From Actinomycetota bacterium (GTDB taxonomy: Bacteria; Actinomycetota; Thermoleophilia; Gaiellales; Gaiellaceae): DNA of 64,000 nt. The notes beneath the pieces were generated by a model. That model made no database searches and was not told the origin of the DNA. It saw only the letters and a program-made list of their open reading frames with translations. The position numbers and the translations under genes were made by a program. Below, in pieces: positions 5,727 to 55,071 of this stretch (position 1 is the first letter of the stretch; each line of letters opens with the position of its first letter). Location: positions 1-64,000 of the forward strand of contig VAWI01000024.1 in NCBI GenBank assembly GCA_005884005.1, given 5' to 3'.

Positions 5727-6845
5727 ATGGCGACGACGCAGCGGGACTACTACGAGGTGCTGGGCATTGGCCGCGCGGCCAAGGAGGCCGAGATCAAGCG
5801 GGCCTTTCGAGGGCTTGCTCGCGAGCTCCATCCCGACGTCTCGGATGCCCCGGATGCACAGGAGCGCTTTCGCGAGGTCGTCGAGGCCTACGAGGTGCTG
5901 TCGAAGCGCGAGACGCGCGAGCTCTATGACCGCTTCGGCCATGCGGGGCTCCGCGGCGGAGGCTTCACGCCCACGCAGTTCGACTTCGGCAGCCTCAACG
6001 ATCTGTTCGCGGCCTTCTTCGGCGACGACCTCTTCGGTGTCGGTGGCCGCACGTCACGCTCGCGCGGGGCCGACCTCGGAGTTCAGGTCGAGATCGAGCT
6101 GGTCGAAGCTGCGAGCGGAACCAAGCGCGAGATTCCGTTTCCGGTCGCCGTCACGTGCGGCACGTGCGGCGGCAGCGGGGCCGCGCCCGGGACGAGCCCG
6201 GTCCCCTGCGGCACCTGTGGCGGCGCCGGTCGCCTGCAGCGGGTCTCCCGGAGCGCCTTCGGCGAGTTCGTCCGCACGCAGACGTGTCCGGCCTGCCAAG
6301 GCGCCGGCCAGCAGATCGAAGAGCCATGCTCCGACTGCCAAGGCGACGGCCGCACGGTCGAGGAGCGAAAGCTCGAGGTCGAGATCCCGCCCGGAATCCA
6401 TGACGGCCAGCAGATCCGGATCTCAGGTGAAGGCCACGCCGGCGGCGGAGGCGCGCGTGCAGGCGACGTGTACGTCGAGGTTCGCGTGAAGCCCGACCCC
6501 CGCTTCGTTCGCGAAGGCAACGACATCTTCTCGACGGTCGATCTGACGATCACCGATGCTGCCCTCGGCGCGACCGTGTCCGTGCCGACACTGAACGGGG
6601 AGGTCGAGCTCGAGTTCCCGGAGGGGACGCAGGCCGGCGAGATCCGGGTGCTCCGCGGACGCGGGATGCCGGTCCTGCAGGGCTTCGGTCGCGGCGACCA
6701 GCGCGTCCTGGTCAACGTTGCCGTTCCGCGCCGGCTCAACGACGAGCAGCGCAAGCTGCTCGAGCAGTTCGCGCGCTCGACCGACGAGGAGACCTACCGG
6801 GCCGACGAGGGATTCTTCGAGAAGCTGAAGAGCGCGTTCCACTGA
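5727..6845 (+). CDS. dnaJ: Chaperone protein DnaJ
   Basis: A 372-residue type I J-protein and co-chaperone of DnaK. The J domain (about 5-70) carries the HPD tripeptide in ARELHPDVSD. A short Gly/Phe-rich linker is followed by four zinc-binding repeats: CGTCGGSG, CGTCGGAG, CPACQGAG and CSDCQGDG. The C-terminal substrate domain ends FFEKLKSAFH. Its TGA stop overlaps the CTG proposed as the prmA start (CTGA). Canonical in length and motifs. Confidence 0.97.
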   Translation: MATTQRDYYEVLGIGRAAKEAEIKRAFRGLARELHPDVSDAPDAQERFREVVEAYEVLSKRETRELYDRFGHAGLRGGGFTPTQFDFGSLNDLFAAFFGDDLFGVGGRTSRSRGADLGVQVEIELVEAASGTKREIPFPVAVTCGTCGGSGAAPGTSPVPCGTCGGAGRLQRVSRSAFGEFVRTQTCPACQGAGQQIEEPCSDCQGDGRTVEERKLEVEIPPGIHDGQQIRISGEGHAGGGGARAGDVYVEVRVKPDPRFVREGNDIFSTVDLTITDAALGATVSVPTLNGEVELEFPEGTQAGEIRVLRGRGMPVLQGFGRGDQRVLVNVAVPRRLNDEQRKLLEQFARSTDEETYRADEGFFEKLKSAFH

Positions 6846-7603
6846 TCGGCCTTCGGCGCGTCTCGGTCACCGTCGACGGCGAGGCCGCGGAGTCCGCGCG
6901 CGCCGAGATGCTGGCCCTCTTCCCGGAGGGCTTCGAAGAGGCCGAGCGCGGCGATGAGTTCGAGCTCTCCGCCTACACGGACTCGGGCGGCGAGGCGCGG
7001 ATGTCCGCTGTCTTCGGGGCGGTTGCGGCGAAGGACGTGCCCGCCGACTGGGAGGAGCGCTGGAAGCACTTTCACCGCCCGGTCCGCGCGGGCAGCCTGT
7101 GGATCGTGCCGCCGTGGGAGCGGGCTCCGGAGGACCGGGAGTCGATCACGATCGACCCCGGCCGCGCCTTCGGGACCGGGGCGCACCCGACGACGCGGCT
7201 CTGCCTCGAGCTCGTCAGCGAGCTCGAGCGGGGTTCCCTGCTCGACGTGGGCTGCGGCTCAGGCGTGCTCGCGATCGCGGCGGCGAAGCTCGGCTTTGGT
7301 CCCGTGGTCGGGGTCGACAGCGATCAGCACGCGATCGAGGCGGCTCGGGCAAACGCGGCTGCGAACGGCTTCGAGCTCGACTTCCGGCACGCGGATGCGC
7401 GCATCGACACGCTTCCAACCGCCGATGTCGCAGTCGCGAACATCAGCGAACAGCTCGTCGCCGCCGTGGGCCCGCGACTGGAGTGTGGACTGCTCGTGAC
7501 GTCGGGATACTTCGAGCCCCACGTCCCGCGGGTGCCGGGCTTTCATGCGATCGGTCGTCGGAGACTCGACGGGTGGGCAGCCGATCTGCACGCTCCGCAG
7601 TAG
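6842..7603 (+). CDS. prmA: Ribosomal protein L11 methyltransferase PrmA-like, CTG start proposed
   Basis: Class I SAM methyltransferase with LLDVGCGSGVLAIAAAKLG as the SAM loop and ITIDPGRAFGTGAHPTTRL, diagnostic of PrmA, which methylates ribosomal protein L11. The first ATG in frame is at 6908, but a family-like strand-helix segment (RRVSVTVDGEAAESARAE) is encoded upstream of it. No ATG, GTG or TTG occurs in that frame for over 100 nt further upstream. CTG 6842 overlaps the dnaJ stop as CTGA, exactly where coupled starts sit elsewhere in this genome. This gives 253 aa (231 aa from 6908). Function is confident; the start is an inference. Confidence 0.88.
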   Translation: MIGLRRVSVTVDGEAAESARAEMLALFPEGFEEAERGDEFELSAYTDSGGEARMSAVFGAVAAKDVPADWEERWKHFHRPVRAGSLWIVPPWERAPEDRESITIDPGRAFGTGAHPTTRLCLELVSELERGSLLDVGCGSGVLAIAAAKLGFGPVVGVDSDQHAIEAARANAAANGFELDFRHADARIDTLPTADVAVANISEQLVAAVGPRLECGLLVTSGYFEPHVPRVPGFHAIGRRRLDGWAADLHAPQ

Positions 7604-7614: not shown

Positions 7615-8802
7615 GTGGCGCGCTTCTCGATCAGGTTCCTCGGCTGCAAGGTCTCGCAGACGGATGCCCAGGCCGTCCGCGAGCGGCTGCTCGCCGACGG
7701 CCACCGCGAGGTGCAGGACGCGGAGGTCGCGGTCGTCAATACCTGCTGCGTGACACACGAGGCCGTGCGCAAGTCGCGGCAGGCCGTCTCGCGCGCCGCG
7801 CGAACGCATGCGCACGTGTTCGTGACGGGATGCGGTGCCAATCTCGCCGGTGACGCGTTCGCGCGGATGCCCGCCAACGTCACGGTTGTCGCTCTTCCGA
7901 GCGAGCAGACACCCGGTTTCGTCGCCGGCGATGTGGGGGCGATTGGCTGCGTCCAGGCCGATGTGCGTCTCGACCGCGTTCGCGCCTTCGTGAAGGTGCA
8001 GGACGGCTGCAGCTTCTCGTGCAACTTCTGCGTCGTTCCGCTCGTGCGCGGCCGCTCGCGCAGCCGGGCGGCGGCGGCGGTGCTCGACGAGATTCGGCGG
8101 CGGGTCGCGCAGGGACACCGCGAGGTGGTGCTGACCGGGATCAATCTCGGCTGCTACCGCGACCGGGAGGCGGGCTACACGCTCGCTCGGCTCCTTCGCG
8201 AGGCGGGGGCGATCCCCGGGCTCGCGCGGCTGCGGCTCTCGTCGATCGAGGTCAACCACGTCAACGATGAGCTGGTCGCGGCGCTGCGCGAGACACCGAC
8301 GCTCGCGCGCCATCTGCACGTGCCCCTTCAGTCCGGGGACGATCGCGTGCTCCGCGCGATGGCCCGCCGCTACACGGCCGCAACCTATCTGCGGCGCCTG
8401 GAAGGGCTCGATGACTTCAATCTGACCACGGACGTGATTGTCGGCTTCCCGGGTGAGGACGAGCTTGCTTTCCGGCGGACGGTTCGGCTCGTCGGCGCCG
8501 CCGGAATCACCAAGGTCCACGTCTTTCCGTACTCGCCTCGTCCGGGGACCCGGACCGCCGGCGAAGACCCCGTCGCGCCCGCGACCAAGAAGGAACGGAG
8601 CGCACGTCTCCGCGCCGCCTCGCACGAGGCCTGCCTCGAGCGCTGGCGCTTGAAAGTCGGAACGGACGACCTGGTGCTCGTCGATCGCCCTGGCCGCGGC
8701 TACGGCGACGACTACTCGCCGTGGCTCGTCGATGCTCCCGTAGGCGAGCTCGTGCGCGTGCGCGCGGCGGCGGTGTCGGAGGAGGGGATCCTCGCTGCCT
8801 GA
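7615..8802 (+). CDS. mtaB: tRNA methylthiotransferase, MtaB type
   Basis: A 395-residue radical SAM methylthiotransferase. The N-terminal domain shows three cysteine sites (LGCKVSQTD, VVNTCCVT, VTGCGAN) that hold the auxiliary Fe-S cluster. The radical SAM motif is CSFSCNFC in DGCSFSCNFCVVPLVRGRSRS, and a TRAM-like RNA-binding domain ends the protein. The start sequence with GCKVSQ and the size fit MtaB/YqeV, which converts t6A37 to ms2t6A37 in tRNA, better than MiaB. The t6A synthesis genes tsaB, tsaD and tsaE lie in the same window. GTG 7615 is chosen from the -10 spacing and homology; the open frame extends further upstream only as a shadow of prmA. Confidence 0.9.
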   Translation: MARFSIRFLGCKVSQTDAQAVRERLLADGHREVQDAEVAVVNTCCVTHEAVRKSRQAVSRAARTHAHVFVTGCGANLAGDAFARMPANVTVVALPSEQTPGFVAGDVGAIGCVQADVRLDRVRAFVKVQDGCSFSCNFCVVPLVRGRSRSRAAAAVLDEIRRRVAQGHREVVLTGINLGCYRDREAGYTLARLLREAGAIPGLARLRLSSIEVNHVNDELVAALRETPTLARHLHVPLQSGDDRVLRAMARRYTAATYLRRLEGLDDFNLTTDVIVGFPGEDELAFRRTVRLVGAAGITKVHVFPYSPRPGTRTAGEDPVAPATKKERSARLRAASHEACLERWRLKVGTDDLVLVDRPGRGYGDDYSPWLVDAPVGELVRVRAAAVSEEGILAA

Positions 8803-53639: not shown

Positions 53640-54112
53640 AGGAGATGACGCGAGTCGAGCTGCGGCGGCTCGAGATGCGGGACCTGAACGCGATCGAGCG
53701 GATCGAGCGGGCTTCCTATCCGACGCCCTGGTCGCGCTCGATGTTCGCGAGCGAGCTCGCGAAGCCGTCTTCGATCTGCCTCGGCGCCTTCGACCTCGAG
53801 ACCTTCGAGCTTGTGGGCTACCTCGTCATCTCCCGTTATGTCGACGCATGGCATGTGATGAACGTCGCTGTGACCGCGGAGCACCGCCGCCGCGGCATCG
53901 CGACGATGCTGCTCGAGCGGCTGTTCGAGGTGACGGCCGGCCGAGGCCGCCGCGGCTACACGCTCGAGGTGCGCGTCACGAACACGGAAGCAGTCGCCCT
54001 CTACGAACGACTGGGCTTCAAGCCCCGCGGCGTCAGGCGCGGCTACTACACGGACAATCGAGAAGACGCATTGATCATGTGGAAGGATCCAATCAGCGAG
54101 CCGGACGACTGA
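53636..54112 (+). CDS. rimI: Ribosomal protein S18 alanine N-acetyltransferase
   Basis: A 158-residue GNAT enzyme of the RimI type: YPTPWSRSMFASEL, MNVAVTAEHRRRGIATMLLE (acetyl-CoA loop) and EVRVTNTEAVALYERLGF are conserved. It is coupled to tsaB (ATGA). Its stop overlaps CTG 54109 as CTGA, the proposed tsaD start. rimI between tsaB and tsaD is the usual actinobacterial order. Confidence 0.94.
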   Translation: MKEMTRVELRRLEMRDLNAIERIERASYPTPWSRSMFASELAKPSSICLGAFDLETFELVGYLVISRYVDAWHVMNVAVTAEHRRRGIATMLLERLFEVTAGRGRRGYTLEVRVTNTEAVALYERLGFKPRGVRRGYYTDNREDALIMWKDPISEPDD

Positions 54113-55071
54113 TCCTGGGCATCGAAACTTCGTGTGACGAGACGGCCGCCGCGGTCGTCACGCCCGATGGGCGAATCCTCTCGAACGTCATCTCCTCGCA
54201 GGCGGAGCTTCACGCTCGCTTCGGGGGCGTCGTCCCGGAGGTCGCTTCGCGACGCCACCTCGAGCTCGTCGTGCCCGTGCTGCGGGAGGCACTGGCCGAG
54301 GCGGACGCCGAGCTCGAGACCCTCGATGCGGTCGCGGTCACGCAGGGACCCGGCCTCGTCGGCGCGCTGCTCGTCGGTCTCTCGGCTGCGAAGGCCGTCG
54401 CCTGGGCGAACCGGCTGCCGCTGGTCCCGGTCAATCACTTGCACGGTCACGTTGCATCGCTCTACCTCCAGCCGGAGCCGATCGAGCCGCCCTTTCTCTG
54501 CCTGCTCGCGAGCGGCGGTCACACGCTGCTGATCGACGTCGCCGAGCCCGGCGGCTTTCGCGTGCTGGGGACAACTCTCGACGACGCCGCGGGCGAGGCG
54601 TTCGACAAAGGAGCGCGGCTGCTCGGCCTCGGCTACCCCGGCGGAGCGGCCATCGACCGGCTGGCCCGCGAGGGCGATTCCGGCTCCTACGATTTCCCAG
54701 TCGCGCGAGTGCACGGGCTCGACTTCTCGTTCTCGGGCCTGAAGACGGCGCTGCTCTACACCGTCCGCGACCTCTCGGAGGACGAGCTCGAACGCCGCCG
54801 CGCCGATCTCGCCGCCGCCTACCAGCGTGCGATCGTCCGCGCCCTCGTCGCCCGGGTGCACGAGGCCGCCGAGCAAAACGCCGCGTCGAGGATCGCGGTC
54901 GTCGGCGGGGTCGCGGCCAACTCGGAGCTGCGGGCGGCGCTACCGGAGGCGGCCTTCGCGCCGCTGCCGCTCTGCACGGACAATGCGGCGATGATCGCGT
55001 CGGCCGCCCGCTACACGGAGGCAGTCCCCTTCCCCGGTTATCTTGCGCTCGATGCGTACGCGTCTGGCTAG
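54109..55071 (+). CDS. tsaD: tRNA t6A threonylcarbamoyltransferase TsaD
   Basis: A 320-residue catalytic subunit for t6A37 formation. It reads LGIETSCDETAAAVV from the third residue. The metal-binding HxxxH is in VNHLHGHVASLY, with LLASGGHT and the C-terminal VVGGVAANSELR and PLCTDNAAMIA. CTG 54109 overlaps the rimI stop (CTGA) exactly at the conserved start. GTG 54079 is a canonical alternative that adds 10 residues read from the rimI region; the first canonical start downstream (GTG 54271) would remove essential motifs. Confidence 0.95.
   Translation: MILGIETSCDETAAAVVTPDGRILSNVISSQAELHARFGGVVPEVASRRHLELVVPVLREALAEADAELETLDAVAVTQGPGLVGALLVGLSAAKAVAWANRLPLVPVNHLHGHVASLYLQPEPIEPPFLCLLASGGHTLLIDVAEPGGFRVLGTTLDDAAGEAFDKGARLLGLGYPGGAAIDRLAREGDSGSYDFPVARVHGLDFSFSGLKTALLYTVRDLSEDELERRRADLAAAYQRAIVRALVARVHEAAEQNAASRIAVVGGVAANSELRAALPEAAFAPLPLCTDNAAMIASAARYTEAVPFPGYLALDAYASG

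Follow-up and report, generated by a model that had tools for sequence, protein, structure and literature searches.

The dnaJ-prmA junction in the window (the whole stretch of DNA analyzed, 64,000 nt) raises the question of where, and with which codon, translation of prmA begins. The initial annotation placed the start at a CTG that overlaps the dnaJ stop codon. Bacteria are generally regarded as almost unable to initiate translation at CUG.

The prmA start in the window

The local gene order is hrcA, dnaJ, prmA, and an mtaB-like methylthiotransferase gene. The dnaJ ORF (5727–6845, forward strand; NCBIfam TIGR02349, 395.7 bits) begins with ATG and ends with TGA at 6843–6845, with CAC as its final sense codon where most relatives have CGC. 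Its stop codon shares a four-nucleotide CTGA (6842–6845) with the candidate prmA start codon, CTG at 6842–6844 on the same strand, so that these coordinates bear out the overlap originally described. Counted from the CTG, prmA (ribosomal protein L11 methyltransferase; 6842–7603, forward strand) encodes 253 aa and ends in TAG at 7601–7603. The product matches Pfam PF06325 at 153 bits (gathering cut-off 22), and its best family match is the NCBIfam equivalog TIGR00406 (141.6 bits, E 3e-41, which is below its curated cut-off, 183.15). The mtaB-like gene follows at 7615–8802 (forward strand, with a presumed GTG start at 7615), scoring 310 bits against TIGR00089, which exceeds that model's cut-off, and 329 bits against TIGR01579, which falls short of the cut-off there.

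The prmA frame is open from a TGA at 6428 on and contains no ATG, GTG, or TTG before the ATG at 6908–6910, which is codon 23 of prmA and the expected pick of a standard gene caller. The initial annotation, which had counted over 100 nt without such a codon upstream of the CTG, understated the case: the open stretch there is 414 nt, and its sole near-start codon is ATT 6812. An AlphaFold model of the protein read from the CTG (pLDDT 91) has an N-terminal domain and a SAM methyltransferase domain in the PrmA fold. Its best structural matches are Thermus PrmA structures (Z 24.6–25.9 over 225–237 residues), with model residues 4–6 to 252 aligned to Thermus residues 1–254. The match to T. thermophilus PrmA (PDB 2nxn, 3cjr) thus covers the full-length fold from residue 1, with Z about 25, although identity to the window protein is about 30%. 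As had been proposed from the sequence, the first strand and helix are encoded largely ahead of the first ATG: beta strand 1 occupies residues 5–12 and helix 1 residues 13–26, and the 21 codons between CTG and ATG (6845–6907, forward strand) cover the strand and most of the helix.

The dnaJ-prmA junction in relatives

The PrmA query was matched in all 129 genomes of the order searched, some of the matches being weak or partial; the sequences used are mostly metagenome assemblies. The window's own family (f1) is apparently Gaiellaceae, because the f1 junction of locus L027 matches that of L034, from Candidatus Gaiellasilicea maunaloa, which NCBI places in Gaiellaceae. An in-frame CTGA is found at the overlap in 76 of the 87 f1 genomes scored, which is beyond chance, and in 28 of the 31 genera with a scorable overlap. 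Six more genomes have an in-frame TTGA, and none has an in-frame GTGA or ATGA. The remainder comprise one CTAG, one GTAG with a GTG immediately downstream, one out-of-frame GTGA with an ATG near the start, and two genomes in which no dnaJ was found upstream, both with an ATG at the homologous place; canonical starts are thus present in four of the five genomes without an in-frame NTGA overlap. The CTAG case (L083:395, forward strand, genome G048), where dnaJ ends in TAG, has no ATG, GTG, or TTG in the span scanned, and may be a sequence error.

Within the CTGA set, short indels shift the overlap by -15 to +21 nt relative to the alignment, and the prmA frame is always kept. In 28 CTGA genomes from 15 genera there is no ATG, GTG, or TTG from the upstream in-frame stop to codon 10 past the CTG; in L073, for example, the stop lies eight codons ahead of the CTG, and a canonical start is not reached until 38 codons past it. 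Two observations that the initial annotation had named as counting against a CTG start were not borne out. Relatives do not lack the N-terminus, which in the family is present from the overlap on and lines up with the beginning of PrmA structures already solved, and an assembly error hiding a canonical codon is very unlikely with CTGA common to 76 genomes, including one assembled as a single 2.6 Mb contig (L072, genome G054).

Outside the family, all eight sequences from two other families of the order, f3 and f4, have GTGA or ATGA overlaps, and in family f2 the GTG or ATG lies upstream by a few codons. In other families of the class, 19 of 20 genomes have an ATG, GTG, or TTG within about three codons of the homologous position, most frequently as a GTGA overlap with dnaJ. 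One sequence from another family of the class (L331) has no canonical start near the aligned position and a CTG two codons in; it aligns poorly. Since most outgroup sequences have a GTG or ATG here or close by, the CTG start looks derived in f1, probably, on this comparison, from a GUG at the same place. A quick tree gives 11 start-state changes over 107 sequences, an approximate figure, since support is poor at many forks and f4 is nested inside f1.

Coding constraint also changes at the CTG. Over 92 within-genus pairs, pooled and sharing sequences, so that they are not independent tests, dN/dS is 0.249 for codons 2–22 and 0.253 for the next 30 codons; for the 21 codons upstream of the CTG, read in the prmA frame, it is 1.69. 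Judged by these ratios, the 21 codons after the CTG are under protein-level selection like that on the gene body, and the 21 before it are not. Constraint begins at the CTG, with no canonical start able to serve the conserved protein in the window or in the 28 genomes just described.

This bears on the other places where PrmA might begin. A start at the downstream ATG or GTG, here ATG 6908, with the conserved upstream codons lying outside the protein, would agree with the presence of ATG 23 in many family members and with what a standard caller would be expected to choose. That codon is absent in many others, however, some of which have no canonical start for 30–90 codons; the codons ahead of it are constrained as strongly as the gene body; and starting there would delete strand 1 and ten of the fourteen helix 1 residues from a confidently modeled fold, all of which makes this reading very improbable. 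Frameshifting by -1 at the stop codon of dnaJ, giving a DnaJ-PrmA fusion in which prmA needs no start codon, is about equally improbable. The prmA frame is indeed the -1 frame of dnaJ, open across the junction, and the final dnaJ codons are conserved, but the junction (by eye TTC CGC TGA in most, with CGT or CAC in others) contains no X XXY YYZ slippery heptamer, and slippage would mean re-pairing from CGC or CAC to CCG or CCA in the P site, with final codons that vary among CGC, CAC, and CGT. Also against it are the sharp switch of frame usage at the overlap, in-frame stops 8–19 codons upstream in several relatives, the ordinary GTG or ATG at the junction in outgroups, and a PrmA model that begins where solved PrmA begins. 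A neighboring non-canonical codon such as ATC 6845 has hardly better prospects: ATC directly follows the CTG in the window's genus, but in most other genera that codon is AGC, ACC, ACG, or others while the CTG is retained, and the position with skewed base composition is the C of the CTG. The predicted start of prmA at CTG 6842 is well supported by these comparisons.

Codon choice at overlaps in the family

Beyond what the initial annotation described, the CTG start is a family-wide trait of prmA, and CTG is also found at other overlaps in the family. A second likely CTG start in the window is that of tsaD (54109–55071, forward strand), at a CTGA overlap (CTG at 54109–54111), with a GTG 10 codons upstream as an alternative. 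CTGA is found at 11 of 90 family tsaD loci, the others having mostly GTGA, and the tsaD CTG sites are predicted to pair more strongly with the anti-Shine-Dalgarno sequence than the GTG sites (median -8.75 vs -4.7). For rluD, eight of 30 loci have CTGA, and in seven of these no canonical codon is close by. An rluD-like gene at L126:14092 (forward strand), and likewise that of L142, follows a CTGA overlap; upstream no canonical start is close, and downstream the first is 22 codons away. In rluD loci L150 and L162 an in-frame TGA lies directly ahead of the conserved region, with no canonical start in the following 20 codons and a GTG overlapping the TGA in another frame; a small indel or a fault in the assembly may be responsible. 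The tsaE gene was considered and set aside, since its CTG 52613, in an in-frame CTGA overlap, lies five codons past a GTG, and canonical starts are close at hand in most oriented relatives. In a census of four-base overlaps in 340 kb of genome, ATG was counted 19 times, GTG 14, CTG 13, and TTG 2, with about half of the 13 CTG overlaps followed by an ATG within two codons. Among the three genes compared (prmA, tsaD, and rluD), CTG is accepted at the other two and preferred only at prmA.

Whether this preference reflects selection can be approached through the final dnaJ codon, which in f1 is CGC in 70 cases, CAC in seven, CGT in six, and CGG in one or two. A start that is merely tolerated, with the C before TGA coming from codon bias or stop-codon context, not from selection for a weak start, would be in keeping with CGC as the commonest arginine codon (55%) and with C as the commonest base ahead of TGA in sampled G000 genes (66 of 153). 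Against this, same-region codon usage predicts 21.5 CGG of 78 where two are observed, in a naive test that ignores relatedness. The terminal arginine column is also the most skewed of 14 CGN columns, ranks first for skew among the 59 fourfold column sets of the dnaJ tail, and has the least G of the arginine columns in the dnaJ alignment; comparing columns within one alignment keeps relatedness, though shared ancestry is only partly controlled in these codon-choice statistics. Overlaps at tsaD in the same family, taken as a control, favor G (GTGA 49, CTGA 11, ATGA 9, TTGA 5), and differ from those at prmA with a naive Fisher p of 7e-25. A merely tolerated CTG seems unlikely on these figures, if far less so than the alternative start positions; it concerns the purpose of the CTG and not its place, and could hold together with the core of the reading preferred here. 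CUG is kept at prmA, with GUG and AUG avoided, and the reason is presumably that a weak start would hold PrmA low relative to DnaJ.

A possible reinitiation start on CUG

Translation of prmA from CTG 6842 by termination-reinitiation, as a family-wide CUG start that would keep PrmA levels low and couple them to DnaJ synthesis, is the reading preferred here, with a probability of roughly 0.87. A ribosome, or its 30S subunit, that finishes dnaJ at UGA 6843–6845 would re-initiate on the overlapping CUG; the ordinary CAU initiator tRNA would read this codon with a first-position mismatch, so that initiation would be with fMet and residue 1 would be Met; and a start this weak, without clear Shine-Dalgarno pairing, would leave PrmA output low and linked to that of DnaJ. 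Translation of prmA would then depend on translation of dnaJ. The stop/start overlap, as CTGA or TTGA, is conserved in the family, as is expected for termination-reinitiation. A Shine-Dalgarno sequence offsetting the CTG was looked for upstream of prmA and not found: predicted anti-Shine-Dalgarno pairing there is weak, at a median of -2.3 kcal/mol, and falls short of that in shuffled sequence, which makes de novo initiation look unlikely and favors termination-reinitiation. The weak pairing also counts against the preferred reading, as does the CTAG junction of L083.

An altered initiator tRNA, with an M1-type anticodon stem, was considered as the cause and rejected, as 31 of the 41 family genomes, two from the window's genus among them, carry the canonical GGGCTCATAACCC arm. 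The incomplete G000 assembly did not yield the arm. A tRNA-Met(CAT) was found at nine of nine loci checked.

A broader proposal is that the family regularly starts at CUG in overlaps, nearly always at prmA and partly at tsaD and rluD, and that CUG at prmA is actively selected over GUG and AUG as a conserved low-output reinitiation switch without a Shine-Dalgarno site; this is slightly more probable than not. A housekeeping gene that keeps CUG over 28 genera and avoids GUG and AUG is a natural setting in which to ask why initiation discriminates against CUG and whether reinitiation relaxes that discrimination. Gene callers limited to ATG, GTG, and TTG can be expected to place prmA N-termini wrongly across a large family of soil bacteria, and to do likewise for some tsaD and rluD genes. 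A literature search on initiation at CTG in Actinobacteria or Gaiella found nothing relevant.

Among known systems, the closest in arrangement are the ATGA and GTGA termination-reinitiation pairs of Huber et al. (2019; PMC6728339), with coupling at overlapping gene pairs established in E. coli and Haloferax. The likeness lies in the four-nucleotide stop/start overlap, the shared strand, and the conserved pairing of genes; the difference is that prmA has CTG, of which the searched text of that paper makes no mention, and weak Shine-Dalgarno pairing. With known bacterial CUG starts prmA would share CUG initiation, with a first-position mismatch as in GUG and UUG. Such starts yield 0.86% of AUG output in E. 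coli and make up 0.024% of the start codons of bacteria (PMC11497404), and a mycobacterial screen saw no enrichment of CTG starts (PMC4633059); both sets of figures count against the preferred reading. AUG to CUG switches account for two of 61,358 ancestral starts (PMC5622118). An output below 1% of that of AUG would fit a role in keeping PrmA low. Known CUG starts are thus rare and rarely evolve, whereas prmA keeps its CUG across those 28 genera, with GUG and AUG absent.
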